Shown here: one piece after another, positions 1,399 to 64,000 of the stretch
How positions within the stretch are numbered: the first letter of the stretch is position 1
Layout: every line of letters starts with the position of its first letter
Source: Hexactinellida sp. DTS-2022
Taxonomy: Eukaryota > Porifera > Hexactinellida
DNA length: 64,000 nt
Direction: 5' to 3'
Assembly: GCA_028753945.1 (NCBI GenBank)
Contig: JAPNXP010000006.1
Location: 3,844,001-3,908,000, forward strand
Translations under genes and position numbers: made by a program
Notes under the pieces: generated by a model
Database searches by the model: none
Seen by the model: the letters and a program-made list of their open reading frames with translations, nothing else
What the model was told of the DNA's origin: nothing

Positions 1399-1698
1399 CT
1401 GCAATACAAGTAATATTGACGTGATAATTTGGAGAACAATATAGGTGATACTTGTACACTTCGCATTCGAATAATGTGGTTTCATTGCCAAGACATGATG
1501 CACCGTTTAGGCTTGGAATAAGATTCCCAGCGACGTACAAGTTTGTGTAATTAGTGTAAGCTCTTCTGAATCCAAGAGTCTGACATGCTATATCTGAAGC
1601 AGCTTGGTTCCATTCAAACGCACATACAAACCCCCAACCATTTCTGTAAATATCCAGAACACCTTGATGACCTTCACTCAAACGAACTTCTCCATTTA
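1399..1698 (-). CDS. Gene L SRCR domain 5 (type I), last exon in window
   Basis: This is a 300-nt phase 1-1 exon. It begins N-G-E-V-R-L and contains NGWGFVCAFEW, ACQTLGFRRA, SCLGNE, ECEVYK, YCSPN and ITCIAG. The six cysteines of type I are intact. A consensus donor follows, so the gene continues to the left. Confidence 0.85.
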
Positions 1699-4600: not shown

Positions 4601-6989
4601 GGGTTGGGATTTTCTTCAGCAGTTGGTGCAATGGATTCACAAACACCTAATCAAAATAATTTATTGACGATAAACTGTAATGCAATAGATTTCCGTTATA
4701 ACTAAGTCGGATAAAAAGAAACACCCACGTATATAGATTCAAATAACAAGATACCTTAAATTATGCTATAATAGGAGTTCATTGTAGCTATGTTGATGTA
4801 TAACTTATCGATATTCTTAACAAAAATAATTTTGTTTTAAACAGTTCATTTTTTTTATTAAAGTATTTCCCAAAACTGTTTCCGGGTACTAAAAGTGCAG
4901 TAGACTCTCGTTAATGTTTAACAACAGGGGATCTTTCGAAATTTGTCTTTGTTATCCACAATTCGCATTAAGCGGAGTCATTGCATGCATTTGTATAAAC
5001 TAGGGGAATTAAAATATGTTCTCCTTAACTGATATTTCCTTTATCCGTGTTCGTACTAACGAGAGTCCACTGTATATTTACCATTTAAAGCGTAATAGAG
5101 TAAAATTTTATTATACATATATGAATTATTATTAAACCTACTTACATCACATTTGACTGTTAACTTAACTAAATATTTGGGCAACTAACGACATACTGTC
5201 TTTTGAGAGCTAATTACATTTCCTAGTATGTATCAGGATAGTATCTAATAGCAGTTAATTTTTTTCATGGAAATTACGAATCACTTTAATTGTACTTAGG
5301 AGATTTAAATATACGAGCCCTTCGGTCTCGGTCGCTTTGCGACGGATCACTCTCTCACAAAAGTCGCCTCGCGACTTTTGTTCGTTCGTGTTAGGCACTA
5401 CGCGATACAATTAACGGCCGCTTCGCGGCCTTTCCCTCCCCAAAAGTAATCACATTAATACTGAGTTTTAATAGCTCAATAAATTTCAGTTGCACGATAA
5501 GAAAGCTCGAATCAAAATAATACTAAAAGAAAAACAGGCAATAGAATAGACAAATGATTGATTGGTTAAATGAATTAATTTTCAATCAATCAAATTGGAG
5601 CCTCAGAAAATATTTCTATTATGCACAATCTATTTATACTAATTGATGAAATCTGCTAATCTATACTAACAAACCCTCGAATTTAATTGGCTAACATATT
5701 TTGTCACCTTCAAATGTGAATATTTCTCTTCAAAAACCAATAGATCGTTGTCGCAGTATAAAATTACTCCTGTATACAAATTTTCAGCTTTCTGGGACTC
5801 GTAGTCTTTCCAATTAATCTGGACAAACAAACAAACAAACAAACAAACAAACAAACAAACAAACAAACAAACAAACAAACAAACAAACAAACAAACACAC
5901 AAACAGACAAACAAACACACTACAATTCCTCTTTTTATATATAGATAATATATTGAAGTAATGTAAACCGCAAATAATTCAAAAGTTAGCACAATTTTAA
6001 AAACTTACCAGGATTACAAATGATGTAAATATGTTCATAATAGTTGCAGTAATAATAGTAGTACTCTTCATACAGGCTATGGGAACAATTGAGTATGTTT
6101 GTTTCATTTCCGATGCAGTCTACGTGCAACAATTTGTAGTTTATATTTGCATCATAGTAATAGTAATTGGTAAATAAGGCAGAACGATAACCCAGTATTC
6201 TGCATGAGACGTTTGCATTTATATCAGTCCAACCATCGTCACACACTGGGCCCCATCCGTTATAATATACCTCCAAAACTCCTCTATCTCCATCAGTCAA
6301 TCGTATATCTCCATTACCTAAATACAAGAGTTAATAGGGTATACTAACCATACTTACTAACTCCTTCAAATAGAATTTTATTACTAAATCCAAGGATTTT
6401 TCTTTTGATTTAAGGATTTTCCTTGTATTCAACGACTAAATTTGACAAAAGATATACTATACATAGTTTCTATTACAATTTCGAGTTATTTTATTTAGTA
6501 TTACATTATTTTGTCGTAATGCGTATTAATCAAAGAACTCTACGTATATAAGCTGGCATGAAGAAGAATTCATGAAATTAAGTTATTAGTGAAAGAGGTT
6601 AGTGCAACGCATATATTGATTATCCTGATGAAATTTTAAAAATTAAATACTAACTACATAATACGCGGTTACTTACTAGCAAAATAGATAAATTAAGATG
6701 CCACTATCAGCCTAACAAACAATTCGATGTAGGTCAAGTCGAGACTTATGACTCTTTCACAAAATATATTCTGGATAAATTCTGGATAACACACGCATAT
6801 AAACAAACGAGCAATTAATACATAGATATGTATACTTTTGCTAAATAACACTTTTGCTATATAATATAACTTGTACTTTGGTGGAAAGAAAATTAACATA
6901 AATAACTTACTTTGAGCTTGTATTAGCGCATGAACAGATAACCATGCAAGTATAATACAAAACAAATAAACATTAGTTTTGTACTTCAT
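1399..6989 (-). CDS. Gene L: SRCR-repeat receptor, 5' part only (6 exons)
   Basis: This is the 5' part of a gene homologous to gene M. Exons in transcription order are 6989-6911 (signal peptide), 6317-6009 (SRCR type I), 4646-4335 (II), 4199-3909 (I), 2124-1813 (II) and 1698-1399 (I). All are flanked by GT-AG sites and joined in phase 1, giving an open frame. The signal exon is 79 nt, the same length as that of gene M, and ends in the same Q-A-Q. The remaining domains, and any 7TM part, would lie left of the window. By homology with M and R a membrane receptor is expected, but a soluble multi-SRCR protein cannot be excluded. Confidence 0.8.
1813..2124 (-). CDS. Gene L SRCR domain 4 (type II)
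   Basis: This 312-nt exon has the eight type-II cysteines: DGCEA, YICGN, VICKEN, FQCNG, LCDC, TCSS and VQCDLPG. It is almost identical to gene M domain 11 at 28677-28988, including flanking intron sequence. Confidence 0.88.
2125..3908. other. Gene L intron between SRCR domains 3 and 4
   Basis: About 2125-2774 matches the gene M intron at 28989-29635. The stretch of about 1.08 kb from 2775 to 3855 has no counterpart in gene M, where a 171-bp hairpin-element fragment sits instead. I see no exon in it. Confidence 0.55.
3909..4199 (-). CDS. Gene L SRCR domain 3 (type I)
   Basis: This is a 291-nt exon and the shortest type I in the window. It begins N-G-T-V-R-H and contains YICDDYF, VCRQLGYRAA, IRCLGN, NCDF, NCGS and VQCDSG. 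Its partner is gene M domain 10 at 29859-30149, which differs at a few residues. Confidence 0.87.
4335..4646 (-). CDS. Gene L SRCR domain 2 (type II)
   Basis: This 312-nt phase 1-1 exon encodes the eight-cysteine domain with YYVCADEF, VVCREN, LPIYPYKYQC and SLCEC, closing IQCQTPG. It is near-identical to gene M domain 9 at 30282-30593. Confidence 0.87.
4898..5072. mobile_element. pogo-like MITE, 175 bp
   Basis: The ends are CAGTAGACTCTCGTTAATG and TACTAACGAGAGTCCACTG. The right flank is TA; the left TA has mutated to TG. It is uninterrupted here, unlike the copy in gene M. Confidence 0.65.
5313..5946 (-). mobile_element. Helentron-like element, full-length, reverse
   Basis: On the plus strand it begins with the hairpin tail (ACGAGCCCTTCGGTCTCGGTCGC, then a CGGCCGCTTCGCGGCC palindrome) and ends with the GT-rich 5' end, seen as CAAACACAC and expanded to an (AAAC)n tract at 5822-5895. 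Gene M has no copy at this site. Confidence 0.6.
5822..5895. repeat. (AAAC)n microsatellite
   Basis: About 18 copies of AAAC lie inside the 5' end of the reverse element. They create the spurious CLFV-repeat open frame on the minus strand. Confidence 0.95.
6009..6317 (-). CDS. Gene L SRCR domain 1 (type I)
   Basis: This is a 103-residue, phase 1-1 exon with six cysteines: VCDD, SCRILG, DCIG, NCSH, YC and ICN. Loop 3 is tyrosine-rich (NYYYYD, then EEYYYYYC). It is closely similar to gene M domain 8 at 31695-32000, so it belongs to the duplicated block. Confidence 0.88.
6911..6989 (-). CDS. Gene L exon 1: start codon and signal peptide
   Basis: The start codon is at 6989-6987. The 26 residues begin MKYKTNVYLF, have a hydrophobic core (CIILAWLSV) and end QAQ before a phase-1 GTAAGT donor. 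The next exon supplies the rest of a Ser codon and then N-G-D-I-R-L of the first SRCR domain, so cleavage near Q-A-Q is plausible. The start is supported by the equivalent exon in gene M and by a shared upstream TATA-like sequence. Confidence 0.82.
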
Positions 6990-7083
6990 TGCGAAAGTTA
7001 ATATAAACTTCCGAAATTTGTTTATATAAAATTTTAACCTAATATATGTTATCAGTTAATGATATCAATTTGGTTAACTAGAG

Positions 7084-7093
7084 TATATATATA
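7084..7093 (-). promoter_or_regulatory. Candidate TATA box of gene L
   Basis: The minus strand reads TATATATATA about 95-105 nt upstream of the gene L start codon. The surrounding sequence, with a conserved ATGATATCAATTT-like stretch downstream of it, aligns with the gene M upstream region, where a TATATAAA lies at a similar distance. Confidence 0.45.
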
Positions 7094-8628: not shown

Positions 8629-8634
8629 TTTAAT
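8629..8634 (-). terminator. Candidate poly(A) signal of gene M (ATTAAA)
   Basis: ATTAAA on the minus strand lies about 165 nt after the gene M stop codon. The equivalent hexamer is conserved after the gene R stop at 44307-44312. No AATAAA was seen nearer the stop in either gene. Confidence 0.35.
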
Positions 8635-8797: not shown

Positions 8798-9156
8798 TTA
8801 GTTGTTTTCATATTCATTATTGTGCTGTGCAGGCGTCACATCAAGAATCTCTCCATAAATAGGATTCGTTATAAAATCATCAACATTGGGATTATAGTAC
8901 GATTCATATGTTCCAGATTCAAGCGGAAAATTGGAAAAGCCATAGACAGGATTTTTGCTTGATGTTGGAGATCCCGGATACTGATCTAAGTCCGAAATTC
9001 TCTTAGACTCTTTTGATCCTCCAAACAATGCTTCTGTTGCTCCCAAGAAACCTTTGCTATCTTTCTTTTGTCTTGGTTGCACATCTGGAGTAGCAACTTT
9101 ATCCATAGTTTCAATTGGATCCTCGTATATTGTCTGCTTTGTTTCGAACTTGAACT
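8798..9156 (-). CDS. Gene M last exon: cytoplasmic tail
   Basis: The stop codon is at 8800-8798. The tail of about 119 residues carries two NPxY motifs (NPVYGF and NPIYGE), a YESYYNPN cluster and a terminal NEYENN. NPxY is a known binding motif for PTB domains and endocytic adaptors, and Y-x-N is a known SH2 (Grb2-type) site. The exon joins the 7TM exon in phase 1 to give K-F-K-F-E. Confidence 0.8.
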
Positions 9157-12100
9157 CTAGAAGGAAATTATACAGAAATATAGTACATGTTTAGATTCAT
9201 ATTTTCCACAAGCTACAGGACCAGGCAATCAGTTCCCAATATAAATTAAAATAGGCAATTTTTTAAATTTCATAGAAAACAACATTAGCCAAAAAAGTAA
9301 GAATAGTAATTAAACCAAGTCGTCGGAGAATTTATACCTAATCCGATCAGAGTCCGGTAAACTATTATTTAGAATAGTAAATACTTACTGATTCTTGCTA
9401 CATCCTCAATTTCTACTTCTTTTGCTTGGATTCTATCAAGAGTATTCATCTCAGCACCTGTTTTCTTGAATCTGCTAGCCACAGTTGAGCTAGCAGTCGC
9501 AGAGGATGATAAAGTCCCACTTGTACCTGTCCCACTTCCTTCAACTACTTTCCTTCTCTTCAGAATAGCCTGCACTTCTCTATTCCTAATCACCACCACC
9601 AGCAAGAAAACTAATCCAACAAGACCATTCAACATGATGAATAAGTACTCGAGAACTGTGCTCTGAATTGTGACATTAAGAATGAGGATAAGCCAAGGAA
9701 TCCCTAATACTGGGGTTAACACCATTGCAGTGACCATTGCATCTTTAATTATATCTTTGTGAGGAGTATTATTGTTCCCCCATTTATTATGGATGATTTT
9801 TAAGATGGCTATTATGAGGAATACAACGTTGATCAAGATGATAACTAGCACAGGAATAATGAACGCCCAAATAACACCTCGTTCATAAGCGAGAAAACAA
9901 TGTTGGCTCGAGTCTACATAGTATTCTCTTGTGATGATGATTGTTATGAGTGGAATCACTAGTGGGAACATCCATCCGAATACAATGAGGTAGGGATATA
10001 TCTTTCTATTTGACATGACACCTGTAAATAAAATACTTATTAATTACTAGTATTTATAATTGGATGTCTTTTTATTTTAATTCACTGGTAAATAATCTAC
10101 ATTAAAATCAGGCTCAATCAAAAACTGTAACTAAGTTGATAGACTATTATAAGAGTTTTACTGTGCCGACTATTCTATAATATAGTGGCCCAGTATTGAA
10201 ACGACTGCCTTGGTTAGTTATTATTATATTTAGTCCGTATCTCCTCCATAGAACAGAGTTTATTATCTAAGAATTCAAATTTTCAGGATAGGTATCTCAT
10301 GCGTTACAGATGTGCACCTGGCGCCACGATTTTTGATAATTCACATTTTCATCCCAAAAGGTGACAAACTTTTACCAATTAAATTCAAGGGTTGTCCCAG
10401 TATGAATTATCGAGTAGCATTCAATTAGCATCAAATGATTTTCTATTAATTGTTAAGTGTGTATTATCTAATTCCTAAAATAGGCTGTAAATTAATTGAT
10501 CGAGAGTATATTCATGCATCCAATCATCATTTGTGTTCCATCAGTTATTTAAATCAGTTACTTTACAGCATTTTCTTTTGGTGGCACAAACAATTAATCA
10601 ACCAACGACCAAAATATAGTGCCACGAAAGAACATGCTGTCAGCACAGCTATAATTTTAGATTTTTCACCCTTTATATTTGGTATATATTTTATTTATTT
10701 ATTAACCAATCTTTCCTCTAATGAACGCCTTCGCGTATGTTGATCGACCAATGGCCGGTCCGTGCTGACCAATGAAAAAATAAAACTGTCAATAATCGGC
10801 CCCCTTTTGTTACATGCCACTGTTCCCAAGTCTGTTGCTCATGTATGGCCCTTTATTGTGTGTTTATATCTAGACCTATTATTTAATACTGTTTGAAATA
10901 ATTAATGATTACGTATGGAATACGAATCGTTCGGTGTCGGTCGCTTCGAACGGATAATTCAACCACCACGCTATCTCGCTTTTTTTTTAAATAGACAAAA
11001 CAACTACACCAATTGTTCACAACAAAATTTGTTGAATTTAATTCGGAATCAGCATACATGTTTCCTTCTAATTCCCGTTTAAAGCTAGCTTCTAGGTTCA
11101 TTTTGAATTTTCAAAACTTCTTCATCTATTTTTGTAAACTAAGAATATTCTTCTTATATATTAAATCACAAAGAATATTTGTGTGTTTGTTCGGAATTGA
11201 TTGAGGATCTAATATTTATTGGTCACCTATAAGTGTAGAATCATATATTATCTGAGGAATGTATAGATGCAAACCGCATATATAATTGAGATAGAAGCTA
11301 ACTTCCAAATGTTGTAATAGGTCAACAAGTATGCTGAATACAAATTTCGAACTTACAAATTTCTAATATGTATATTTATTGTTGTTGTTGTTGTTTAAAC
11401 AAATAGTTAAACAAATTAATAAAATTCAAAATGAACCATAAGCTAGCTTTCAACGGGTATTATAGGTAAACAGGATGCTGAACACGTATTTCGTAATTAT
11501 AAATTTATAATAAGAATATTTATTGTTGTTGTTTACAAAAATAGGGAAACAAATTTTTATTTTTTTAAAACCGATTTGAAAGGCCATTTGGCAGACTAAA
11601 CGGCCGGCAGGTCAAAACAATGGCTTATAGGGAACTTTGATATAAACGAAATATAAAATAATGAGCCCACAATAAGAATTTAAATTCTACATTTGCAGCC
11701 CACATAACTTATTCCCAAATGCATGGTTAATACTAAGTTAATGCTCAAATTTCCAGGGCGAATATTTATAGGAAAAATATCGAGAACGAAAGTAAGATCG
11801 AAAATACAATAAATATACTTACCAAACACAAGTTTGTACATGATGAGTATTCCAACGCACAGTGTCCAGGTGAATACAGCAAGCCATGCGTAGTGCAGTG
11901 CAAATGCTATAATCATGCAAATAACTTGATTGAATTTGCCAGACTCGACACCAAACAAGAACAAACCCACAGCTAACAACATTGAAATGCAGTAGTTGAA
12001 ATAGACAATGTTTGTTTCCACTTTGAAGAAAGCTTTGCCTGCAATACAGAATAGAATTAGTGCAATGATGAGGGAGATGAATGAGATTCCAAGCAGTATG

Positions 12101-50800: not shown

Positions 50801-53800
50801 TCTAACATCATCTATAAGATATGGATACAATCTGCTGTTGGCAGTAACACCGGTTTCAGAGGTAAGCACTGCACCCAGTCCGAGCTGACGACAAGCTACT
50901 ATTGCTGCATTCATATCCCAATGATCATCACACACATAACCCCATCCATGGAAGTAAATCTCGAGAACTCCTGTGTTATTATTATTATTCAATCGAATGT
51001 CTCCATTCACTATTGGAAAACAGGGAATAACAATAAATTCATACGTACAAGGGACTCTTTAGTGTCCATTGACAATATGCAGGAAATTATATGAAATATA
51101 GTCTCTTCATGAAAGATAATGTTGGGGTCAATGGAATTTTTCGATGCATATTATTAAATTCAATATTATTTACTATTGAGGTGATACTACTGTATTTCTC
51201 AGTCAATTATCCGATTGGGTCAACCAATCATCCGATTCAGTCAACCAATCATCCGATTCAGTAAACCAATTATCCGATTGGGTCAACCAATCATCCGATT
51301 GGGTCAACCAATTATCCGACTCATCCAATGAATATGAATACAGTTGTTTTTCATTTTGGTATACGGTTGGTGTATTTATATAAGCAGGTAAATATGAGGC
51401 ACAAACAAATAATTTGCTCAATAACTTTCAAGATACAAACTTTGATTCTTCAAAAAGAAAATAACAGGGAACCAACGCACACCACATATTACGATGCTTT
51501 GTGCAGTATCTCCAAACGTGGGACTGATTCATCACACCATCATCGTTGGAGGAGCTAAACAATCCCACTTCGATCAATTCATCCAAGAATTGTTCGTTTG
51601 CGATTTTGGACAACCGTTAGTTGAACATCAAGGACTTACCAAAACGCATGTCATTCTTGATAACGCTCCTTGTCATAGAGGTGTAGAAAACCGGTTAGGT
51701 GAAATTATCCCTCCGAACTTCGAGTTGGTCCGACTTCCACCTTATTCATGTGAATTAAACCCCATCGAATTCACCTTTAACAGCGTTATAGCTCACGTAA
51801 AACGAGCTCTCAGTCAACATGGACCATGTACACCTCCAGATGGGACTACATTTATATCAGCAAGAAGGCAATTGCTATTGAATATTTGCCCTGGAGCTTT
51901 ACAAAGTATTACACAAGCTGCCACACTCAATGCATTTTACCATGTATTGACTGTTACAGCCGCTAAAGCTATTAGACTCGAAGATCTATAGTACCTAATA
52001 TACTAATCTCTATCAACACTATTACCATTATATATCATTTATGTCTTATTACTATCATTATCTATATCGTTATCATCCTTAGAATGGATTCGGGTAATTG
52101 GTTGACTGAATCGGATGATTGGTTGACCCAATCGGATAATTGACTGAGAAATACAGTAGTATAAATCCAATTTCCTATCATTTAGGAGATAATTTATTGT
52201 AGAGACGATACTCCATCGGTCTTTTCATACCATTTAGGATCAAAAGAAATGTGAGAAAAACTAAAAATTAAAAAAAATCTTAAAAATGAATGTTAATGAA
52301 ATAATAAAGCCTTTGATACAGACCTTCTTACGTATCTTATTAGAAATTTGTATAGGAAAATCTAAGCCGAAATTAATACATTATAACTAACCTGGTGGGT
52401 TGCATTGTACTTCGACAATATGGTCAGAAGTGCAGGTAGATTCATATGATGAACAGTTACACAATGAATCCTCATTTCCAACACATGTAAATTTCCTTTG
52501 CAAAACTGGGAGAAAATCAGTTGAAGTATTTCGGTGAACAGCGATATTGTTGTGAGATAAAATTCCTCCATTTTCATTGCAAACGACATGGGAATTTTGG
52601 TCTGTAAAATCATCAGCACACAGATAATACCAACCAAAGGAATAATAACGAACAACTTGAGGGAAATATACAGCATCAGGGGCATATGATTCACATCCGT
52701 CTAAATAATTTGGGTAACAGTAATATTGTCTATTTGTCAAAAATTATGTAAGAAACTAATATGGTATAGAACAGTTACACCTAATTTTAAAATGAATTAA
52801 AGTTCACAGAAATTCTCATAAAGTTTCATGGATTTATTCAATAAAGGTATTTCACTTACCAGATACACAGTTCAGGTTGACTGAATAATAATAATAATTG
52901 CAATGATTTCCCAAATCATAACTACAGTCACTCAGTTTCGATTCATTGCCAAAACAGACAACATTTTGAATCCAATAACCATAGTAATCATTGTAATAAT
53001 AATTATAATAGTTTTCATTTACTTCACCAGCTCTTCTATACCCAAGCTGTCTACAAGCTACTGCACTGTCAGAAATATCCCAACGGGCGTAGCAGATACT
53101 TCTCCAGACACCATTGTAATACATCTGAAGTGCACGTTCCAAGTGGACTCTTAATTGACCAAATTCTAGATTAGGATTTATAATAAATGCAAATAGCCAA
53201 ATAGATTGAAAATTACACAAACATTTAATCCAATGTGTAATGGATAAATTCTCACCTGGTATCTCACATTGAACAACAGCTAGTTCATCATCCTCACAAT
53301 GATTTGTAGAATATGAACAGTTACAAAGAGATCGTTCGTTTCCAATGCAAGAGTATGTATTAGATGAAATGGCATAGTTATTTCCTGTACTATCTCGAGT
53401 AATATTACTGATTTCAATTGCTGGTCCATAGTTTCCCTCACGACATACAACATCAGCTGTTTCCCAAGTCATTCCACTCGCACAGAGATAATAGTTGGAA
53501 TGACCATCATATAATCTTATTGGTGTCGGATTGGTTGCATTGTGGATGATTGATTCACAACTCCCTATGAGGCATTAAAATTAACAATATTCATTGAAAA
53601 ATTACACTTGAACGAAAAGACATGTATATTTTCATTTAATTATTACGCCAATAATGAGCGTTTTACAATTTTCAGTTTTGTCACCTTCTGGGCTAAAACA
53701 TGTTTAGCTTTTTCTTATATAATATATATTTAAACTACTTTCTATAGGAACTATTTTCCAACTGCCAACCAAATTTAAGTCAGTAGCTCCTACCAGTTCG

Positions 53801-56800
53801 TCAATCAATTCTGACCTGCTAATCTTTTGGGGAAATTTTACAAAATTAATTTGTGTTTAAATCTATCAATTTTCTATATCTATCAATAGAAAAATCACCC
53901 ATTAGAAACATTTATCAATAAAGAGAGAAAAACATACCAGATTCACAGAACAAAACAACGGTATAACTACAACTAGTCGTTGTGGCGTAGTGACAATCCA
54001 AGAGATTTGCTTCAGTGCCTTCACATTGTAAATTTCGTAATAGATAATCTTCATAATCTGAAATGTAATTGTGGTATTTCCTGCTCCAATAATTAAATGT
54101 TCTATATCCCAGTTGTCTGCATGCAACTGTGGAATCATTATGATCGAAAGTATTCGAACATACATACTTCCAAGTGTCACTGTACACTTCGAGTGAACCA
54201 TCAACGCTTGAAATTCGAATTGAACCATTTTCTAACAAAAATCATAACTGTAAATACACTAACATTTGAAATTAAATTTTATAAATTATGTTATTTGATA
54301 AACGAATAATTAAAAAATTAAAAATGAAAGTTAGGAATATTTTATAATTTATACATTATCAAATTTTTATTTAAAGTCCCCTTCCGGAATGATACTAATA
54401 TACAGAAGGAAAGCACAAAATATCAAAATGGGATTTTGTAATACAGTCGACTCCGCTTAATAGAGTCACCTCGGGACCAGGTCGTTTTTATCCGATTAAG
54501 CGGAGAAATCTATTAGCCCATGGCTCTATTAAGCGGAGTCGACTGTAGGAAAAATTTTAAATGACATTCTCATAGTATGTAGAAGCTGTTGAATTTTGCA
54601 ATTTTGTTAAGAAAAGTGAAAGACTATTTATGCAAACACAATTTTTTGTCCCTCAGATAGTTCATTTTTTGTTTAGCTGGCGGCATCGCAAACTAACCTG
54701 GAATCCCGCACAGAACTTCCACCACCTTTCCAGATGTGCATACCTCTTCAGATACCGAACAGTTGCAGAGAGAAGATTCATTTCCGTAGCAATTATGTTT
54801 CAATGGGTAAATGTTTGCAAATGATTGCAGATCCAACTCACTAACATTCCTATACGAGACAGCTGATGTGTGGGCTGTCTCTCTACACACAACGTCTGCA
54901 TTCTCCGCAGTGAATCCAGCAGCACATATATAATAACGCTTTTCATCCACAAAATATTCCACCAAGTGGTAATCCCCAGCCGTCAAAGGAGCATGTACCT
55001 CACAATCTCCTAAAGGAAATTAGAAATAAATTCTACAGATCATTTCCTAAATTAGACTCTATTGGAAGTTAGGAAGTGCTATTTTGCAATATAATATAAA
55101 TACCGAATTTATAATTTTGGCCCACGAAAACAATAAGCGTCGGGGTGCTTATTCGGGAAAATAAGGTAAGTGAAAATTCATTCAATATCTAATATACGAG
55201 CCCTTCGGTCTCGGTCGCTTTGCGACGGTTCGGCGCTTCACGCTTCAATAGACAACCGCTGCGCGGCCTTACTACGCCTTGAAACTAATTATTTATACTC
55301 TATTAATCACGAGCCCTTCGGTTTCGGTCGCTTTGCGACAGATCGGTGATACACACCTCAAATTAACGGCCGCTGTGCGGCCTTACTCGTCACACTTTCT
55401 ATCATGGAAATGGTAGAAAGGGACGTTATGATTTTAAATTTTCATTAATTTGTTTACCTATTTGTGTAAACAACAACAACAAATACTCATATTAGAATTT
55501 TGTAAATGCGAAATTCGTGTTCAGCACACTTGTTTACTTATAATACCGTTGAAAGCTAACTTCTAGGTTGATTTTGAATTTTCATTAATTTGTTTACCTA
55601 TTTGTGTTGTTTTGACAAAAATGGTCCCTACAAAATTCCAATTAATTCTGGATAAACACACAAACAAACACACAACAATTTCGATTTTAATATATAGATA
55701 GATACACTAACCTCGTGTGCAGTAGAGAAGGATCTTTTGACCGTAAGATGTATGAGTGTGTTCATAATGCGGGTAGGTAAATGAACAGCTACCAATCGTG
55801 TAGTTACATTGTTCCAGGCTTTGCTCAAGACCATTACATTCTACGCCAGTGAATCCAGTCGGATAGATGCTGTTAAGGTGACTCAACGTACTGTAGGTAG
55901 AATATAGAACACTTTTGTAACCCAATTGTTTGCATGCAACAAGAGAAGCTGTGTTGTCCCAACTGTAGCTGCATACAAGGTTCCATGCATTATTGATGTA
56001 TATCTCTAGCAGATTTCCATAATAGTCACTGTAGCGAAGAGTTCCATTATCTTAAAAATGCAGATAATATAAAATTTAATTGGTAATATCTATTATTTAA
56101 TGACTAATACTTACCAGGAGGTGAACATTTGATCGTGGCAACTTCATTTTCACAAGTGCTATCAGTTTGAATACAGTTACTGTCACACAAACTGGATTCA
56201 TTACCTTTGCACACTATACTATATGGGTATATCTCATAGATGGGATTCAACTGAGATCTGAGAGTAGAACCAATCGATTCCGCTCCATTGGCAAATCCGT
56301 TCTCTCGGCAGATTACGTTTGCTTCATTGATAGTTATTGCGGTTGAGCAGAGATAGAACCATTCTTCATCTTTATAGAGTCTAGCAGGCTCTATCGCAGT
56401 ATGTCCGTTGAAAATGTAGGATTGACAACCCTCTAAAAATAGAATGGATATTATTATGGTTGTTACATTCAAATAGATAGTATTTTGTCGAATTTTTAGC
56501 ACTGCGGCCCAAAATCATATAGTATAGTTATTTACTATTCAATTTGTTTACTATTGTATGTATGTACGTGTGTATCTTTATTACAGTGGTAGTAATTATT
56601 TTTTATTAGTGATATTGAAATTTTATAGTTATTACCTGTCCGACATGAGATTTCAATGCTGTAGGAGCAGTATGAACTATTGTGATATTGACAATCTAAG
56701 AGATTAGTTTCGTTTCCCACACACACAACATTATTGATATGTCCAGAGCTCGAATACGAGTACCCAGAATATACTCCACTATATGATAGTGCGTCTAGAT

Positions 56801-59800
56801 AGCCTAGATATCTACAGACTAGATCGGAGCTTGCTTGGTTCCAATAATAAGAATTATAGCAGACTCTCTTCCATCCATTTGTATAACTCTCCAATAACCC
56901 TGAAGATCCATTGGTGAGGCGAATGTGACCAAAAGCTATAGAAAACGTGCAAAGGCTATAAATTTTTGCCTCAACAATATTAAAATATTAATTTGTAAAT
57001 ATAAAACATTTAAATTTAATCGGGGAAACAATAATGTGACTTAGCTCCAATTACTTAAATCTTTTCCATTTTTCAAATGCCAGCGTACTGCTATCTCTTG
57101 GTTGCAACGCCTCGTACTTCAAATGATTAATTTAATAGGTAATCTGGAAAGACTTTGTGGCCATAACGACGGAATTATGAGAGAGTTTACATAAATAGAT
57201 ATAGTTAGTCTTGTTACATACAGTAAATTCTACTTAAACGGATCGCTTTTGTCCGAGAAATGTTTGACACGATTAATCGTACATTCCAATTAACCGAAAA
57301 TGTGTTATTTTCAGGCTAAACCTCCATTAATTATTAAATACTAGCAAGTTTCCCGCCGCTTTGTTGAAGTAATATGGTAATATTTTCATAAATTTGATAC
57401 TGGATAATATACAGTATTGTGGGAATATACTAAGTGGTCAGTATGACAGGTAACTGATTATATACAGTCAATGTATTCACGGTTTTAAAATGCGAAATTT
57501 CAGTTATATATTATTGCCCAAGCCCGCTCCAAAAGTACCCTATTTGCCGAAAATAAAACCTGGATCCCTTCTGACGAATACAATCAATTCTGGAAATAGA
57601 AGAAAGTATACTTGTCATATGCTACGTTGATATAAATAATGTTTTTGTATCAGAGATTAACTGCACAGTCCCTGGCGGAAGCAGAATTAAGTGGTATATA
57701 AAATTATTATTGATGGATAACGATTTCAGTAGATAATACACTAAAGAAATGCACTGTTTTTACAACATGCATCCATACCATTGACAAAGTTATTACATTA
57801 TGCCATTGTAATTATAATATTTATAATAATTTGATCCCGTTCTACAGTATGCTTTAAGAGACATTTTAATATTCATTGGATATATTACCTGGTTGTTGGC
57901 ATTGAATGTGTACAATATTGCCAGAACTACAGCTGGATTGTACAGATTGACAAGCACAGAGAGAGTTCTCATTTCCTTCGCAATTATAAGATTGTGGAGA
58001 AATAAGGTAATCGGTTGAGTTCCTTGCAACAGATGTGAATTGGGATACTTTTCCATGATCCAACTCACGACACACTACATCTGCTTCCTGTTGTCCGAAG
58101 CCATCAGCACATATAGTGTACCATTGATCGTTGTAGAGATTGACTGTACTGAGAACCAACGGGTCATAGACATGCGCTTCGCAACCTCCTAAAACACAGA
58201 TAAACTTTAGAACCTGCTGACAAATTAAATTAACACACATCTAACAATACAGTCAGGTCTGCTTATTATGAACAAGATTTCGTCTGCTTAATATGAAGAT
58301 TTTTTATTATGAACAAGCCCTATGGTCCAAATTTAACAACTTGCATAGGGTTTGTATTAAGTTGAGTTCGCTTATTATGAAGTCTCTCTATTATGAACAT
58401 AATTTTTGGTCCCTTGAATGTTCATAATAAAAGAACTTGACCATGGGCGTAGGGAGGGGGGATCAGGGGGGGGGGCAGTTGCCCCCCCCCCCCCCTAGCT
58501 CAGCCATTTTCCGGGGGTTTAATCCCCAGACCCCCTTTAAGTCGCTCGCTACGCTCGCTGGTTGTACATGCCCCCCCCCCCCTAGATTTTTTACTGTATA
58601 TGGTTACCAGTTCTATGCAACAGAAAGATGCTTAAGTATTAAATAAAGAGTATTATACCTACCTCGGTTACATGTCACACTATTTTCATAATAACAATAA
58701 GTACTGCTGCGATAGTTACATTCCAAAATATTGCTCTCTGCCCCCGTACAAGACACGTCGGAAATGAAGTAATCGCCATTATATAAGTACGCCTCAGTAT
58801 ACAGATTAATGATGGATAATGCATTTCTATAACCAAAGCTTCTACAAGCAACATCAGCTGTGACATGATTAAAGTAGTAACCACAGACTCTTCTCCAGCC
58901 ATTCTGATATACTTGAAGAGATCCAGAAGTTTCATTCGAGTTCCGAACTGTTCCTTCAACTAGTACAAATAAATAAACACCAAATTTATCTGCTGAAGTA
59001 CACTTATTTACCTGGAGGATTACATTGAAGTACAACAACCGTATCGGAGGTACATTGTTCAGTTATTGTAGGACAGTCACATAACGAATCTTCTTCACCA
59101 GTACAGTTGTGAATCTTTGAATATATCAAAGTATTGCTGGACAGATTTTGACCACTGACAGACGAATATGTGAGAAAATCCCCAAAATCATTCTCATGAC
59201 AGATAACATTACCAGTCTGCATGGTAAATTGCTGAACACAAATATAATGCCAAGCTCCATCAATGAAGAACTGTACTACCTGCTCTCTCTGGTCGGCATC
59301 TCCAGCAAAAGACTCACAACCACCTTTTGGATATGGAATATAAATTACAGTTTCGATTAACATATTAAGCTCAGTAGTTAATTAGCAGGATAATTTATTT
59401 GATCATTAGGATCTTTAGGAATTACACTGGCTTTAAATAACTTGGGGAAATATGTAGATTATAATTATTGTTACCAGAAAGTCGGATATCGAAATATCGG
59501 TATTCAGTATTAATTGAATGTATACTGTATATATTCAGCCAACTCCGAATACTGGACGAGCCTACTCTATATATCGGCCAACACTATTCAATTTAAAACT
59601 TTGCTTATCAAAGGCGTATTTTTGACAAAATATGAATTTTCAACTGGCAGAAAATTTCAATTCAATAGATTTTTGACCGATATATAAGTAATTACTTCTT
59701 TCTATCCTCATAAATTACTCAGTTAAACTCACTTCTGTCACAAACAACAGTTGGTTTATAATGACAATATGAAGCGTTGTAATAGTCACAATCAGTTAAA

Positions 59801-62800
59801 CTAGATTCATCTCCCACACAAGACACATCTGTAATGTATCGAGAATATGAATAAGTGGGGTAAGTGTAGTAACTATCACCGAGATCAGTGTATGAAATTG
59901 CTGCTCTAAATCCTGCACTTCTACAAGCCACTTCTGCATTGTATTGATTGAATCGATAATAATAGTAGTAGTAGTAATAGTAATAGTAATAGTCATAGTA
60001 GTAGTTAAATTGACAGACCACTCTCCACTGCCCAGTATACACCTCGATTTCACCATAATATCCATCACTGAGACGTGTAGTTCCAAATTCTATTTTAAAG
60101 TAATTTTTAACAATTTAGTGATGTGAATAGATGTGTTCATTTACGAATGTGTAAAGCAAATCTATAACTGGAATATTTTTGAGTCGTCAAATTTTTGGAA
60201 ACATATATAAAATCGATTTAGGTGTACTTACTACTTACAGTGTACTCAGGGCCGGATTTACCATTAGGCTAAGTAGGCTATAGCCTTCGGCCCACTACAG
60301 GACACTACAGGACACTACAGGGCCACTATAGGACCACTACCGACCAATGTCGATCATGTTCGGGCCACTTGTGTGGTTCAGCCTTCAGGCCACTCAAGGG
60401 TAAATCCTGCCCTGAGTGTACTATAATATATTTGAAAATTACTTGACTATTTAGGTGAATGCGTAATACATTCTAACTATATAGAAAATATATTTCAGAG
60501 AAATTTAAATAGATAGTATGTATATACCTGGCTCCTTGCATGTAACATTTGCAACGTTATTTGTTGAACATACTTCCATATCTAATGGGCATGTGCATAA
60601 TGAATCCTCTGTGCCATTACAATCATATTGGTATGGATAGATTGGGCGTTGTATATCTAAGCTCTCTAGGTTTGTAGATGTATAATTATCTGCAGATGTT
60701 GTAGTAGTCTCTAAACAAAAAACATCTGCTTCTTCTTTTGTGAAGCCATCAAAACAGAGGTAGAACCAAGATTTATCCGTGTAAGTCTGTGCGAGCTGTG
60801 TCAGTGACTGAGGGTCATCGAGAATAACATCACAACCCTCTAGAAAATATAATAATGAATTAAATTCCATCTATAATGTTGAGCTGCTAAACTTTATACC
60901 ACAATGCCACAACTCTATTATAGTAATAGAAAAAATGCTAAATGCGCTTAATTACAAGAAAATTCGCTATGGTTTATATAATATGGTTCTTATAAATTCG
61001 TTTTATCATTATTGAAATTCAACCTACCAGCTTGGCATACCAATGAAAACCTGTTATAACAATAGTTTGTTACGTATGAATTTTCACACAGTGTTATATT
61101 GGTATCTGTCCTTGAGCATTGACCAATGTTCAAATAAGGTACAGAAGGTGCGTTAGAATAATAATCTGAACTGTATGAAGTAGCCTTGAGGTAGCCAAGC
61201 TGACGACAAGCAATATCAGCAAGGTATTCTATATTATCTGCATAGTAGTAGAAGAAGCCATGGTAACACACATATCCCCAGTCAGAATCCAGGTAAACTT
61301 CAAGATATCCTTCTGTGACTTCTGATAGTCGAAGTGTACCGTATTCTAAGTGTAATACAAATTTAAAATACACTGGAAAAACTCCTCAGTTTTCATATAC
61401 ATCCATTAAAATCAATCAACTTGGCTGGTTATAGGACACTTTCCACGGAGGTTTGTATCGAATTTATCGATTAATATTTAAATTAAGTAAATCATAACAT
61501 AGATATAAAATTTTGAAACACTTATTTACATCATTTTTGATGGAGAGAAAATGAGTCAAAAATGTATCCAAAGTAATTTTGTCCAAGCCTTCATGGATTA
61601 CAATGTGGTAATGTTTATATACACTTATAATCCGTGAATTGTATTATCATAACAAGTATTTACCTGGTTTCTGACATCTAATCGCTACAGCTGCGAGTGA
61701 TGAACAGTTCCTAGGGTTGATAGGACAGTAGCATAGAGAGGCTTCATTTCCTATACAGTTGTGTTGATATGGATAGAATGGGTATCCATAAGTGAGATTT
61801 GGAACTGGTATAAATTCATAGCTCATTGCTGAAGTGCCAAAGTTCTCATGACAAATAGTGTGTGAATTGTTTATTGTAAAGTCATCACTGCACAAATAAT
61901 TCCAGTCATGTCCATCATAGAACTGAACAAAAACATTTGTATCATCTGACTGCAATGCAATAGCGGTACATCCATCTAACGAATTTTAGAAATTACATAT
62001 TGTAACTAAATTTAACTATGTATTCTTCATATAAACTAAATAAGAGAATCTAAAACTTACCAACTTCACATGTCAAGTATACGTGTTCATTAGTACCGCA
62101 ATTATGATCATTACGATGGGAACATTCCAATAGACTTGATTCATTCCCGTAGCAGCGAACATCATCGAGGGTGAAGATTGTAGTCCTGTTAGGATGCACC
62201 TGGTAACTTTCAAAACTTGATGCTCGCTTAAACCCAAGATTTCTACATGCGACATTGGAATCCAATATGTCCCAATAGTCATCACACACATAACCCCATC
62301 CATTGTAATAGTATTCAAGTAGTCCTTCGTGTCCATGGTTAAGTCTAAGCTCGCCGTTCACTGAGAGAGGAAATTGAGTTGAAATAGATGTAATAACAAT
62401 TAGCCATTTAAGAAAATTTTAGAACGTTAATTTTAAGAATTATGTCACTATAGAATCTGTAGTTTCTAAGATTTAGAACAAGATAGCTGTAGATCCTAAA
62501 TGTAGATCCTAAATGCTGGTTTTAAGATGTACGCTCGTAAAGCGGCCGTTAATTGAGTCGTTTAAATCTGACATAAATCAATAAAGGTCACAAGCAGTCT
62601 TTGTGAGAGATTGAAATGTTATCTAGGTGAACAAGTATGCTGAAAAAACGACTTTGCAGTTAAAGATTTCTTAAAATAATATTTACTAGCGCGCTTCGCT
62701 TGCAAGGTCGCTTCACGGCAGTATACAACCACACACCAACCGTTTCGCGGTTGTTATTTGGATTAATAATTAGTACTATACTAACATTTGTTATCGCTTA

Positions 62801-64000
62801 AATTATAAACACAATTGTTATTTGTGTGTATGTGTGTATGTGTGTGTCTTCGTCCAAAATTAAAAGGAAAGAAAAGAAAATTTGACAGTGACTAACTTGG
62901 CGAGGGGTAGGAAATGTTGAGTAGAAACATAAATTTGTTGTCGGATGCCAAATGTAATATATGTATTTGTTTAGTTATTAACTTATTTCATATTTAATTA
63001 TTCTTGTATATTCACTATCACTATAATTATCAGGACATGCAAATATCCGAAATACTATAAACACACAACAATTGTGTTTTAACGTTATAGATTACTATGA
63101 CCCTATAATTTGTAAAATAAAAAATGCGAAAGGTCATTTGTTAATTGTAATAAGTGATTTATTTGCGATTTATTAATAACGAATTTAAAACAATAGTGGA
63201 CCATTGTTGTTGGTTATAAATTAAAAAGGTATAAACATATACTTCAATCGAAAAATTCAAAATTACCTGGTCGGATACAATCTATTACAGCTATGGAATT
63301 TGAGCTACATGATTGTTGAGTAGTATTGCAGTCGCATAGAGAAGTTTCATTTCCATCACAGACGAGGGCATTGAAATAGATTGGAAAGCTTTCAGTTGCT
63401 TCGTTGAGTATGATGCCGTTTTTGATAGAACGCAGTCCGTAATCACCTTGCTCTAGGCAAATTAAATTAGCCTCAATCTCGGTAAAGTTTTCAGAGCATA
63501 CATAGTGCCATTGTTCGTTAATGAAATACCTCACTTCTTGGGAAGATTCATCTCTATTGTATAAGGTTGTGTCGCAACCCTCTATATGAAACATTCATAA
63601 ATATAAGGCATTTTGCTTTATAATAATTCGACTCATGGAATCATCCGTTTCCGAAATGGTTCGATATCGTATGTTGAATGTTTGGCATGGAGAAACAAAA
63701 TATTATCGGTGTTATACAAATGGCGATGATTCATAGATTTATTCATCTATTTTATGAAGACAATGAATATTTACTTATAATTTAGCTATTTAGATTCTTG
63801 CAATAATTTTCCAAAGTAGTTTATTCAGCAAATTTAAACTGAATAGTATAAAACTTACCAACATCACATGTTAAGTACACATGTTCGTAGGTTCCACAAT
63901 CATGACTAGTTCTATGAGAACAATTCAATAAATGCCATTCATTTCCGATGCAGCGAACATCATCAAGGGTGAAGACAGCAGTCCTGTTAGGATGCACCTG
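44482..64000 (-). CDS. Gene R: SRCR-Ig-GAIN-7TM adhesion GPCR, 3' part
   Basis: This is a tandem paralogue of gene M, lacking only its 5' end beyond 64000. The window holds 19 SRCR exons (the first cut by the edge), then the Ig/GAIN exon 50423-49591, GAIN 49004-48717, GAIN 48466-48344, GPS/TM1-3 48283-47785, TM4-7 45721-45089 and tail 44858-44482. All exon joins match gene M in phase. SRCR exons from 61345 leftward pair one-to-one with gene M domains 16-30. The extracellular, membrane-embedded receptor role is inferred from family architecture. Confidence 0.82.
45089..45721 (-). CDS. Gene R exon: TM4-TM7
   Basis: This 633-nt exon is nearly identical to gene M 9389-10021. The few changes include MSSRKIYP, TREYYVDSSKHC and LDRIQ to LERFQ. 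The ECL2 cysteine and LNGLIGLVFLLVVVIRNREVQ are conserved. Confidence 0.92.
45722..47784. other. Gene R intron within the 7TM domain
   Basis: This is homologous to gene M 10022-11822, plus a pogo-like MITE at 46961-47145 followed by a hairpin-element 5' end (CGATTGTTGTGTGTAATTG) that gene M lacks. No exon is seen. Confidence 0.6.
46961..47145. mobile_element. pogo-like MITE, 185 bp
   Basis: The ends are CAGTCAACTCCGCTTAATAG and TATTAAGCGGAGTTGACTG. The left flank is TA; the right flank is CA. It is a relative of the 102-bp element at 54444-54545. Confidence 0.68.
47785..48283 (-). CDS. Gene R exon: GPS, tethered agonist, TM1-TM3
   Basis: This 499-nt exon, phase 0 to 1, has the same GPS (SSAVCESLHLTSFAVFV) and the same missing cysteine pair as gene M. 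TM1 differs slightly (VLSVFTYILLG); TM2 and TM3 are virtually unchanged. Confidence 0.92.
48344..48466 (-). CDS. Gene R small GAIN exon
   Basis: This 123-nt phase 0-0 exon encodes IATSFIKRPNRPIGESRF to IILAEE. It is paralogous to gene M 12727-12849 with about ten substitutions. Confidence 0.8.
48717..49004 (-). CDS. Gene R GAIN exon (96 codons)
   Basis: It is the same as gene M 13153-13452 but lacks four codons (T-G-Y-N) after L-S-D-Y-D. The frame is kept and phases are 0-0. The intron on its right, 49005-49590, has nothing recognised beyond AT-rich sequence. Confidence 0.82.
49591..50423 (-). CDS. Gene R exon: two Ig-like domains and start of GAIN
   Basis: This 833-nt exon has a first Ig with FSCIAEG, VYWTQN and FYCVAEN, and a second with PIVCTANG, IYWTRD and FQCVAEN. 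It is Asn-rich after the second Ig. The second Ig and linker differ from gene M far more than the 7TM part does. Confidence 0.86.
50475..50647. mobile_element. pogo-like MITE, 173 bp, TA target duplication
   Basis: The ends are CAGTAGAATCTCTTTAGTA and TACTAACAAGGTTCTACTG inside TA dinucleotides. It has no counterpart in the homologous gene M intron at 14624-14697. Confidence 0.68.
50701..51009 (-). CDS. Gene R SRCR exon nearest the Ig domains (type I)
   Basis: This 309-nt exon contains NGDIRLNNNNNTGVLEIYFHGW, YVCDDHW, ACRQLGLGAV, VRCTGDEQEIFDC, NCGNNEHVRLSCEPK. It pairs with gene M domain 30. Confidence 0.88.
51187..52159 (+). mobile_element. Tc1/IS630-superfamily DNA transposon, 973 bp, in a gene R intron
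   Basis: It is flanked by TA at 51185-51186 and 52160-52161. The terminal inverted repeats start CTACTGTATTTCTCAGTC and match perfectly for about 63 bp. Within them a 21-bp unit (CCGATTGGGTCAACCAATCAT-like) is repeated about five times on the left and two to three times on the right. It encodes a truncated transposase. Gene M lacks it. Confidence 0.85.
51494..51991 (+). pseudogene. DDE transposase C-terminal part (DDE_3-like)
   Basis: This 165-codon open frame contains HVILDNAPCH (second catalytic Asp) and CELNPIEFTF (catalytic Glu), separated as in Tc1/IS630-type DDE domains. MLCAVSPNVGLIHHTIIVGG matches the strand after the first Asp. The helix-turn-helix and first Asp are missing, so it is an internally deleted, presumably non-autonomous copy. 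The ATG is an internal Met. Confidence 0.8.
52392..52700 (-). CDS. Gene R SRCR exon (type II)
   Basis: This 309-nt exon contains GCESYAPDAVYFPQVVRYY, YYLCADDFTDQNSHVVCNEN, FTCVGNEDSLCNC, STCTS and VQCNPPG. It pairs with gene M domain 29. Confidence 0.87.
52860..53165 (-). CDS. Gene R SRCR exon (type I)
   Basis: This 306-nt exon contains GQLRVHLERALQMYYNGVW, ICYARWD, ACRQLGYRRAGEVNENYYNYYYND, VVCFGNESKLSDC, HCNYYYYSVNLNCVSG. It pairs with gene M domain 28 and has longer Tyr runs. Confidence 0.87.
53256..53564 (-). CDS. Gene R SRCR exon (type II)
   Basis: This 309-nt exon contains SCESIIHNATNPTPIRLY, YYLCASGMTWETADVVCREG, YSCIGNERSLCNC, HCEDDELAVVQCEIPG. It pairs with gene M domain 27. Only 90 bp of intron separate it from the next exon. 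Confidence 0.87.
53938..54231 (-). CDS. Gene R SRCR exon (type I)
   Basis: This 294-nt exon contains NGSIRISSVDGSLEVYSDTW, YVCSNTFDHNDSTVACRQLGYRTF, LQCEGTEANLLDC, SCSYTVVLFCESG. It pairs with gene M domain 26. Confidence 0.87.
54444..54545. mobile_element. pogo-like MITE, 102 bp, TA target duplication
   Basis: There is a perfect inverted repeat with outer arm CAGTCGACTCCGCTTAATAG (two more bases also match). It is flanked by TA on both sides. Confidence 0.8.
54698..55009 (-). CDS. Gene R SRCR exon (type II)
   Basis: This 312-nt exon contains DCEVHAPLTAGDYHLVEYF, YYICAAGFTAENADVVCRET, KHNCYGNESSLCNC, EVCTSG and VLCGIPG. It pairs with gene M domain 25. Confidence 0.87.
55196..55700 (-). mobile_element. 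Two stacked Helentron-like elements, reverse
   Basis: A first hairpin tail (ACGAGCCCTTCGGTCTCGG) occupies 55196 to about 55290. A second begins at 55309 and continues through one 141-bp-type repeat to a GT-rich 5' end (CAAACAAACACACAACAATT) near 55670-55700, close to the next SRCR exon. Confidence 0.58.
55712..56050 (-). CDS. Gene R SRCR exon (type I)
   Basis: This 339-nt exon contains NLVCSYSW, ACKQLGYKSV, VECNGLEQSLEQC, SCSFTYPHYEHTHTSYGQKILLYCTRG. It pairs with gene M domain 24. Confidence 0.86.
56115..56432 (-). CDS. Gene R SRCR exon (type II)
   Basis: This 318-nt exon contains GCQSYIFNGHTAIEP, WFYLCSTAITINEANVICREN, VVCKGNESSLCDSNC, TCENEVATIKCSPPG. The L-C-x-C motif is stretched to C-D-S-N-C by a two-residue insertion. 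It pairs with gene M domain 23, which has lost the Y-L-C cysteine. Confidence 0.86.
56636..56935 (-). CDS. Gene R SRCR exon (type I)
   Basis: This 300-nt exon contains GHIRLTNGSSGLLESYTNGW, RVCYNSYYW, VCRYLGYLDALSYSGVYSG, VVCVGNETNLLDC, YCSYSIEISCRTG. It pairs with gene M domain 22. Confidence 0.87.
56936..57888. other. Gene R intron
   Basis: The only recognisable item is a possible decayed pogo-like left end (CAGTAAATTCTACTTAAACG) at about 57231. No exon is seen. Confidence 0.45.
57889..58188 (-). CDS. Gene R SRCR exon (type II)
   Basis: This 300-nt exon contains GCEAHVYDPLVLSTVNLYNDQ, YTICADGFGQQEADVVCREL, YNCEGNENSLCACQS, SSCSSG and IQCQQPG. It has eight cysteines and pairs with gene M domain 21, which has a ninth. 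Confidence 0.87.
58250..58600. mobile_element. MITE remnant followed by a poly-G/poly-C element
   Basis: At 58250 a TA-CAGTCAGGTCTGCTTATTA end starts a repeat of TTATTATGAA motifs that runs to about 58440. It is followed by CATGGGCGTAGGG with long G and C runs up to about 58590. The class of the second part is uncertain. Confidence 0.45.
58663..58959 (-). CDS. Gene R SRCR exon (type I)
   Basis: This 297-nt exon contains GTVRNSNETSGSLQVYQNGW, RVCGYYFNHVTADVACRSFGYRNAL, VSCTGAESNILEC, YCYYENSVTCNRG. It pairs with gene M domain 20. Confidence 0.87.
59012..59323 (-). CDS. Gene R SRCR exon (type II)
   Basis: This 312-nt exon contains GCESFAGDADQREQVVQFF, YICVQQFTMQTGNVICHEN, HNCTGEEDSLCDC, QCTSD and LQCNPPG. 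It pairs with gene M domain 19; only 52 bp separate it from the next exon. Confidence 0.87.
59733..60089 (-). CDS. Gene R SRCR exon (type I, polytyrosine expansion)
   Basis: This 357-nt exon is the longest in the array. After VVCQFNYYYD it carries an almost uninterrupted run of tyrosines (12 in a row before R-F-N-Q). Gene M domain 18 has only YYNYLYY there. The other motifs (VACRSAGFRAA, SCVGDESSLTDC and VVCDR) are the same. Confidence 0.87.
60247..60414. mobile_element. hAT-like MITE, 168 bp, 8-bp target duplication
   Basis: The ends are CAGGGCCGGATTTACC and GGTAAATCCTGCCCTG, flanked by AGTGTACT at 60239-60246 and 60415-60422. GGACACTACA repeats lie inside. The homologous gene M intron near 24820 is uninterrupted. 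Confidence 0.78.
60528..60839 (-). CDS. Gene R SRCR exon (type II)
   Basis: This 312-nt exon contains GCDVILDDPQSLTQLAQTY, FYLCFDGFTKEEADVFCLET, YPYQYDCNGTEDSLCTC, EVCSTN and TCKEPG. It pairs with gene M domain 17. Confidence 0.87.
61028..61345 (-). CDS. Gene R SRCR exon (type I)
   Basis: This 318-nt exon contains GTLRLSEVTEGYLEVYLDSDW, YVCYHGFFYYYADNIEY, IACRQLGYLKATSY, GQCSRTDTNITLC, YCYNRFSLVCQAG. It is paralogous both to gene M domain 7 (closest) and to domain 16. Confidence 0.87.
61664..61975 (-). CDS. Gene R SRCR exon (type II)
   Basis: This 312-nt exon contains DGCTAIALQSDDTNVFVQFY, YLCSDDFTINNSHTICHEN, HNCIGNEASLCYC, NCSS and IRCQKPG. It is closest to gene M domain 6. Confidence 0.87.
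62061..62360 (-). CDS. Gene R SRCR exon (type I)
   Basis: This 300-nt exon contains NGELRLNHGHEGLLEYYYNGW, YVCDDYWDILDSNVACRNLGFKRA, VRCYGNESSLLEC, NCGTNEHVYLTCEVG. It is closest to gene M domain 5. Confidence 0.88.
62361..63266. other. Gene R intron with hairpin-element remains
   Basis: Two copies of the 13-bp TGTAGATCCTAAA unit lie near 62489-62514. A second-family hairpin tail (GCGCGCTTCGC, then ACACCAACCG) begins near 62695 and continues in reverse to about 62955. A GT-rich 5' end of a first-family element lies inside at about 62808-62870. It is the same arrangement as gene M 34395-36617, with the nested element mostly deleted. Confidence 0.55.
63267..63581 (-). CDS. Gene R SRCR exon (type II)
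   Basis: This 315-nt exon contains GCDTTLYNRDESSQEVRYF, YVCSENFTEIEANLICLEQ, LVCDGNETSLCDC, SCSSN and IDCIRPG. It is closest to gene M domain 4. Confidence 0.87.
63859..64000 (-). CDS. Gene R SRCR exon (type I), cut by the window edge
   Basis: Only the 3' part of the exon is visible: the segment from QVHPNRTAVFTLDD through VRCIGNEWHLLNC to TCDVG. It is closest to gene M domains 1 and 3. The gene continues beyond the window. Confidence 0.83.

Follow-up and report, generated by a model that had tools for sequence, protein, structure and literature searches.

Three tandem paralogous genes, which the sequence supports as adhesion GPCRs with large SRCR arrays, occupy the analysed stretch of 64,000 nucleotides (hereafter the window; C15:3844001-3908000, from a 112.4-Mb genome of 18 contigs) and its flanks, and the middle gene appears from sequence comparison to be a mosaic of the other two. 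The genes, designated U, M and D, lie head-to-tail on the minus strand, the whole cluster running from about -26,017 to 77,186 in window numbering, where coordinates outside 1-64000 refer to flanking stretches of the same contig. The domain order is identical in all three, i.e., signal peptide, SRCR array, Ig-Ig, GPS, 7TM and a long tail. The arrays of U, M and D comprise 31, 30 and 29 SRCR domains, respectively, and the spliced models encode 4,146, 4,031 and 3,958 aa without a single internal stop, those of U and D having been completed using flanking sequence. The first-pass annotation had proposed three head-to-tail SRCR-array paralogues, which is borne out by the 90 SRCR exons that U, M and D carry on the minus strand; the 30 SRCR exons and 4,031 residues which it gave for M are both returned exactly by the spliced model. 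Its coordinates proved right, although the cluster extends beyond both window ends, and an ending like the Ig-Ig-GAIN-7TM one that it ascribed to at least two genes is also seen in D, whose 3' end, located outside the window, encodes Ig-Ig, GPS, 7TM and tail. The analysis is based on one assembly.

Gene models and integrity of the cluster

The gene models were established using Pfam together with A/B profile HMMs made for this purpose and a gene finder that chains exons. The HMMs were trained on 34 A and 35 B exons which the first gene-finder run had produced, and the final models are domain-anchored, each domain being tied to splice sites. Within the 108-kb region the HMMs returned 89 SRCR matches (E<=1e-3, best per open frame), 89 of 89 on the minus strand, and the per-exon pass yielded 90 SRCR exons (47 A and 43 B), one open frame carrying two domains. 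All 90 are open; 53 lie wholly within the window and one more spans its end. Domain-anchored splice pairs were sought in phase 1, and a run with generic, untrained splice matrices in which the phase was left free served as an independent check, phase 1 providing the best acceptor for 88 of the 90 exons and the best donor for every one. Each gene possesses one signal-peptide exon; the three are related and end in phase 1, and no convincing signal-peptide exons were found besides those preceding the three arrays. Comparison of the window with Rfam returned no matches at the gathering thresholds.

The SRCR array and the 7TM region almost certainly belong to one gene, because the phase-1 intron between the final SRCR exon and the Ig exon measures 74 bp in both M and D (277 bp in U). 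A reading in which an SRCR-array gene is followed by a small Ig-GAIN-7TM gene might appeal to exon skipping or alternative ends, but it is highly improbable given this intron and its matching phase, the lack of any convincing second signal-peptide exon upstream of the Ig exon, and a plus-strand paralogue on contig C6 in which the order (A/B array, Ig, GAIN-region exons, GPS, 7TM and tail) is the same; it was rejected. Hardly credible is the proposition that the array is an assembly artefact or a row of pseudogenes. The region is indeed repeat-rich, and an SRCR array on contig C13, whose 7,663-bp units are 99.86% identical, could be a false duplication at that locus. Against this, the window contains no N, dS between corresponding array modules amounts to 0.10-0.33, all SRCR exons are open and three models of some 4,000 codons are free of internal stops; an artefact in the window was therefore judged unlikely.

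Domain anatomy

The SRCR exons are of two types, A and B, which are ordered A-B-A-B with a final A in each of the three genes, the sole break being M07A-M08A. Two A exons scored 71.8 and 74.3 bits and one B exon 37.4 bits against the Pfam SRCR profile (PF00530; cut-off 26.1), and many further SRCR exons exceeded this cut-off in the genome search. Exactly six Cys residues, the number that defines group A, are present in 46 of the 47 A exons (seven in the other), the first pair being 12-29 residues apart and the final pair 7-22 (46 modules). Eight Cys residues are found in 38 of the 43 B exons (6, 7 or 9 in the others), and the extra two, one N-terminal and one being the first Cys of LCxC, fall outside the usual six; the B exons thus depart from the classical group-B pattern, whose additional Cys pair we take to be at other places. 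Tyr accounts for 11.5% of residues in A domains versus 6.2% in B domains. The motifs CDDxW and D[DN][VI]xCxGxE, which presumably constitute the SRCR cation site, occur together in 14 of 47 A domains.

In the spliced 3' part of M, Pfam detected both GPS (PF01825; 26.7 bits, cut-off 22.5) and 7tm_2 (PF00002; 112.6 bits, cut-off 20.6, profile positions 5-249 of 250). A GAIN fold is proposed here from position and the presence of GPS, because no Pfam GAIN model matched the spliced 3' part of M at E<=0.01, or two of its exons alone at E<=0.1. The GPS of U, M and D reads HLT followed by SFAVFV, and two of the four Cys residues of what we take to be the classical GPS pattern look lost. Each of the four tails read (those of U, M, D and the C6 paralogue) contains two NPxY motifs; the D tail is 48% identical to that of U at the protein level. 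The features of the three genes are compiled in Table 1.

Table 1. Positions of the features of genes U, M and D, in window numbering
Feature	Position	Strand	Basis or remark
U signal-peptide exon	77186-77108	-	beyond window
U SRCR array beyond window	to 76963	-
U SRCR array in window, U14B-U31A (18 exons) and end of U13A	50701..64000	-	A/B profile HMMs, splice search
U19A SRCR exon	59733..60089	-	after first Cys, poly-Tyr run from a 3/6-bp microsatellite (59957-60005)
U Ig-Ig exon, GAIN-like stretch at its end	49591..50423	-	Pfam Ig_3 E 1.8e-11, two stretches of open frame; exon model
U GAIN-region exon a	48717..49004	-	exon model; similar to M, D and C6; M copy without Pfam match
U GAIN-region exon b	48344..48466	-	exon model
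U GPS (HLT about 48148-48140) and 7TM first part	47785..48283	-	PF01825 and PF00002 genome search; HLTSF
U 7TM second part	45089..45721	-	PF00002 75.0 bits on open frame
U C-tail exon and stop; NPVY about 44637-44626, NPIY about 44550-44539	44482..44858	-	motif positions hand-counted from exon start
M signal-peptide exon (MRCKIDFQLICIIFLLFSVHKQIQAQ), phase-1 donor	39939..40017	-	tblastn, D signal peptide as query, E 1.5e-6
M01A-M07A SRCR exons, U-like block	32715..39791	-	module identities; 500-bp tiles including introns
M07A/M08A A-A junction; U-like to D-like switch in intron	32000..32715	-	tiles; D01A upstream 6323-6450 = 32010-32139 at 93%
M08A-M30A SRCR exons, D-like block	14698..32000	-	matches D01-D04, then D11-D29; D05-D10 without close counterparts
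M Ig-Ig exon, 74-bp intron from last SRCR exon	13788..14623	-	Pfam Ig_3 E 3.2e-12, two stretches
M GAIN-region exon a	13153..13452	-	exon model
M GAIN-region exon b	12727..12849	-	exon model
M second switch, D-like to U-like	about 12727-11800	-	tiles, informative sites
M GPS (HLT about 12186-12178) and 7TM first part	11823..12321	-	PF01825 28.5 bits, PF00002 31 bits
M 7TM second part	9389..10021	-	PF00002 75.5 bits
M C-tail exon and stop; NPVY about 8953-8942, NPIY about 8866-8855	8798..9156	-	motif positions hand-counted from exon start
D signal-peptide exon (MKYKTNVYLFCIILAWLSVHALIQAQ)	6911..6989	-
D01A-D05A SRCR exons in window	1399..6317	-
D06B-D29A, Ig-Ig, GAIN region, GPS, 7TM, C-tail	to -26017	-	beyond window

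Mosaic relation of the three genes

Gene M, as judged from its sequence, mainly resembles U towards both ends and D in between. The modules U15-U31, M14-M30 and D13-D29 are collinear; M05-M07 represent a second match to U15-U17, M08-M11 correspond to D01-D04, and M12-M13 to D11-D12. When M was compared in 500-bp tiles, U was the best match from 40300 to about 32300, introns included, and from about 32300 to 12300 the alignments to D were much longer, again with introns included, with several tiles of this D-like block (e.g., 18801, 14801, 14301 and 13301) being higher in identity to U over shorter pieces. From 12300 to 9800 the introns match those of U (about 89-91%) and hardly those of D; the D target ended at -23,300, before the D tail exon, and the last two M tiles are uninformative on D, for which the comparison relies there on the 48% protein identity between the D and U tails. 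At coding sites informative for U versus D, M sides with U at 152 positions of the 17-module core and with D at 510, and 16 of the 17 modules favour D (U19A is reversed, 12 to 7). The respective M=U and M=D counts are 49 and 87 in the Ig exon, 7 and 29 in the GAIN exons, and 31 and 16 in GPS plus 7TM, and the core differs from the latter with a Fisher p of 2e-9, a value that is optimistic given that the sites are linked. Among the three genes M is the simplest choice for the recombinant, because the A-A break sits at the first switch.

The cluster had been described as rapidly reshuffled, a wording supported by the mosaicism that links U, M and D and by near-identical units at two other SRCR loci (one of them perhaps an assembly duplication). 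In the 5' portion of U, identity between repeat units is 90-98%. A short repeated element that might aid recombination was found by blastn near gene ends and in introns (8332-8595, 5310-5561, 44059-44194, 69955-70242 and 55193-55339). Corresponding introns of M and U contain a 13-bp perfect tandem repeat, TGTAGATCCTAAA, in 7 copies (34522-34612) and 2.2 copies (62488-62515), respectively, and the U30B/U31A intron of U harbours a DDE_3 transposase fragment on the plus strand (51446-51988; PF13358, E 3.9e-14).

Selection

The core SRCR domains and the second 7TM exon are under purifying selection. For A and B domains of the core, omega is 0.47 and 0.40 between U and M, 0.44 and 0.39 between U and D, and 0.59 and 0.49 between M and D; the second 7TM exon gave 0.46, 0.21 and 0.38 for the same pairs, with wide ranges. 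Positive selection at the level of the whole SRCR domain was not found. The Ig exon has omega values of 0.73, 0.56 and 0.69 across the three pairs, which are at least as high as those of whole SRCR domains, and the latter are therefore not outstanding. Between U and M, dS falls from 0.23-0.31 in the array to 0.03-0.04 in the 7TM part, a drop that exchange in the latter would lead one to expect.

Within SRCR domains, the loops evolve faster than the framework, an observation which falls short of proving positive selection and whose values are descriptive, because the classes were set after the regional values of both comparisons had been viewed. Only A modules with six and B modules with eight Cys residues entered this test. 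For A-type modules, omega between M and D is 1.36 in loops (95% range 0.92-2.23) versus 0.28 in framework (Fisher p 4e-7, 12 modules), and between U and D 0.62 versus 0.31 (p 0.009, 9 modules). The corresponding B-type values are 0.85 versus 0.23 (p 3e-4, 9 modules) and 0.51 versus 0.29, the latter not being significant (p 0.09, 8 modules).

Relatives elsewhere in the genome

A genome search with PF00530 gave at least 153 SRCR matches (150 of 247 candidates scored), many of them on the minus strand of the present locus, and among the matches listed for the genome are 27 to GPS and 71 to 7tm_2. Five of the 27 listed GPS matches fall in U, M and D, in the C6 gene (4669-4711 kb) and in a C15 gene on the plus strand (from 3804583). 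Outside the cluster there are two SRCR-GPS-7TM loci, and one partial locus on C13. The latter is a row made up of one SRCR exon, two exons judged FN3-like by eye, one Ig exon and a further exon resembling GPS-7TM; it may be incomplete, because its 7tm_2 match contains a stop and no second 7TM exon was found by profile within 10 kb. With two B-type queries, matches that covered the N-terminal Cys segment were confined to the C15 cluster and C6, and those on C5, C14 and elsewhere on C6 were devoid of this segment and scored at most 37.7 bits.

Near-identical repeats were observed on C6, where 5.6 kb is repeated at 99.6% identity, and at C13:1249625-1266500, where SRCR-exon units repeat over 9.2 kb at 99.86% identity with a shift of 7,663 bp (six copies by spacing); the C13 repeat could represent either a very recent expansion or an assembly duplication. 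The C6 paralogue also carries tandem Ig domains (C6:4706186-4708066; 261-bp shift, about 93% identical) in a single long open frame. The next adhesion GPCR upstream of the cluster (C15:3925682-3939053, same strand) has GPS and 7TM exons, and no SRCR or Ig exon of the U/M/D family was found in the 10 kb upstream of it. On the minus strand of C4 (404986-407695), a PIP5K open frame lies about 40 bp downstream of a 7TM open frame on the same strand, a GPCR-PIPK-like arrangement; GPCR-PIPK is, in the portion of a published account that treats it (PMC12716839), reported among animals only in sponges. Homeodomain matches in the genome number 16; taken with that arrangement, they make a sponge the likely source.

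Proposed function and alternative explanations

We consider it fairly probable that the cluster represents an adhesion-GPCR subfamily acting as a signalling scavenger/recognition receptor. The mechanism envisaged is derived from known adhesion-GPCR and scavenger-receptor biology. Variable loops of the SRCR array would bind repetitive, polyvalent ligands such as microbial surfaces, particles or self/non-self glycoconjugates, the long array offering a lever arm as well as avidity. A pull or a bound ligand would then strip the N-terminal fragment at the GPS and bare a tethered agonist, leading to G-protein signalling, while the NPxY tail would link the receptor to PTB-adaptor/clathrin uptake. With every SRCR exon in phase 1, unequal crossing-over in introns could alter the length and order of the array with the frame intact and the 7TM part conserved. 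Sensing of microbes or self/non-self recognition, which the first-pass annotation had offered, would fit the faster loops and the NPxY tail. Because one gene is a patchwork of its neighbours, the cluster may constitute a recognition system that changes fast, in a lineage which arose very early among animals.

The fuller form of this proposal, which we advance tentatively, is a germline-diversified, G-protein-coupled recognition system: in-phase SRCR exons would be recombined between neighbours, with fast loops set in a conserved framework, 7TM part and uptake tail, and arrays would differ between individuals and tell symbionts, food bacteria, pathogens and other sponges apart. A structural role in cell-cell or cell-matrix adhesion or in mechanosensing, with the array as spacer or homophilic rod and its diversity as a by-product of unstable repeats, seems rather unlikely, although it has several observations on its side: the adhesion-GPCR architecture with Ig domains, the rod-like, near-strict A-B periodicity, the whole-domain omega below 1, and the ability of repeats to expand by unequal exchange without selection, as the near-identical units on C6 and C13 illustrate. 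What speaks against it is that, with classes chosen post hoc, A-type loops outpace the framework in both comparisons, a pattern not predicted for a mere spacer under drift, and that SRCR domains commonly bind ligands. Allorecognition between sponge individuals, for which array content would serve as a polymorphic label, draws on the tandem mosaic paralogues and the variable loops; this reading overlaps with the recognition proposal, names one ligand class, and is improbable in that specific form.

Under the recognition proposal, a single molecule would combine a scavenger-receptor array with an adhesion-GPCR switch and with a tail of the uptake type. The mosaic genes illustrate how an array may change without loss of the reading frame. 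The cluster offers a concrete, clonable locus for the question of how filter-feeding sponges distinguish microbes or other sponges, and a handle on whether adhesion GPCRs were germline-diversified recognition receptors early in animal evolution. The passages of published sponge response studies that bear on this proposal are mixed: microbial products elicit a response of an SRCR gene and of an adhesion-GPCR gene in Aplysina aerophoba, GPCRs were down-regulated in Dysidea avara (both PMC6208332), and the part of the Halichondria panicea study that deals with LPS-responsive genes has no GPCR among them (PMC8242945).

Comparison with known systems

The first-pass annotation did not regard SRCR-array adhesion GPCRs as a standard architecture. 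SRCR-repeat adhesion GPCRs are, however, known from Amphimedon queenslandica, in which Krishnan et al. (2014; PMC4302439) described two adhesion GPCRs bearing several SRCR repeats, to the authors' knowledge a unique feature, and pointed to vertebrate immune roles of such repeats. Like these receptors (Aq712029 and Aq715659), U, M and D combine multiple N-terminal SRCR repeats with an adhesion-family 7TM region (7tm_2) in a sponge. This likeness is one of description, array size, exon structure, clustering and recombination lying outside the relevant passages of PMC4302439; measured against that description, the present genes stand out by 29-31 SRCR domains of two alternating types, Ig-Ig, a tandem cluster and mosaic genes. 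Within the open-licence literature searched, no description was found of arrays this large, of A/B alternation or of mosaic clusters.

Tandem SRCR clusters also occur in the sponge and sea-urchin SRCR expansions (PMC10855680), where duplication in Amphimedon proceeded, according to the passages on it, by units of one or two SRCR domains. Unlike the present genes, the members of that Amphimedon cluster are described there with two to six SRCR domains per gene, and in the main text of that article 'gpcr' and 'gps' are absent and '7tm' appears once.

The likeness to lectin receptors lies in recognition domains mounted on a secretin/adhesion-type 7TM region and expanded in an early animal lineage, those domains being of the C-type-lectin kind there and SRCR arrays here. 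CD163 (M130) is a single-pass receptor which shares a tandem SRCR ectodomain with U, M and D, and the B-type profile matches several of its repeats (E 2.6e-58); in contrast to CD163, the present genes encode a 7TM region and GPS, about three times as many SRCR domains, and eight-Cys B domains with a different Cys pattern. With SRCR-repeat adhesion GPCRs already known, array size, A/B alternation, clustering and mosaicism are what appears to be new in these predicted receptors.
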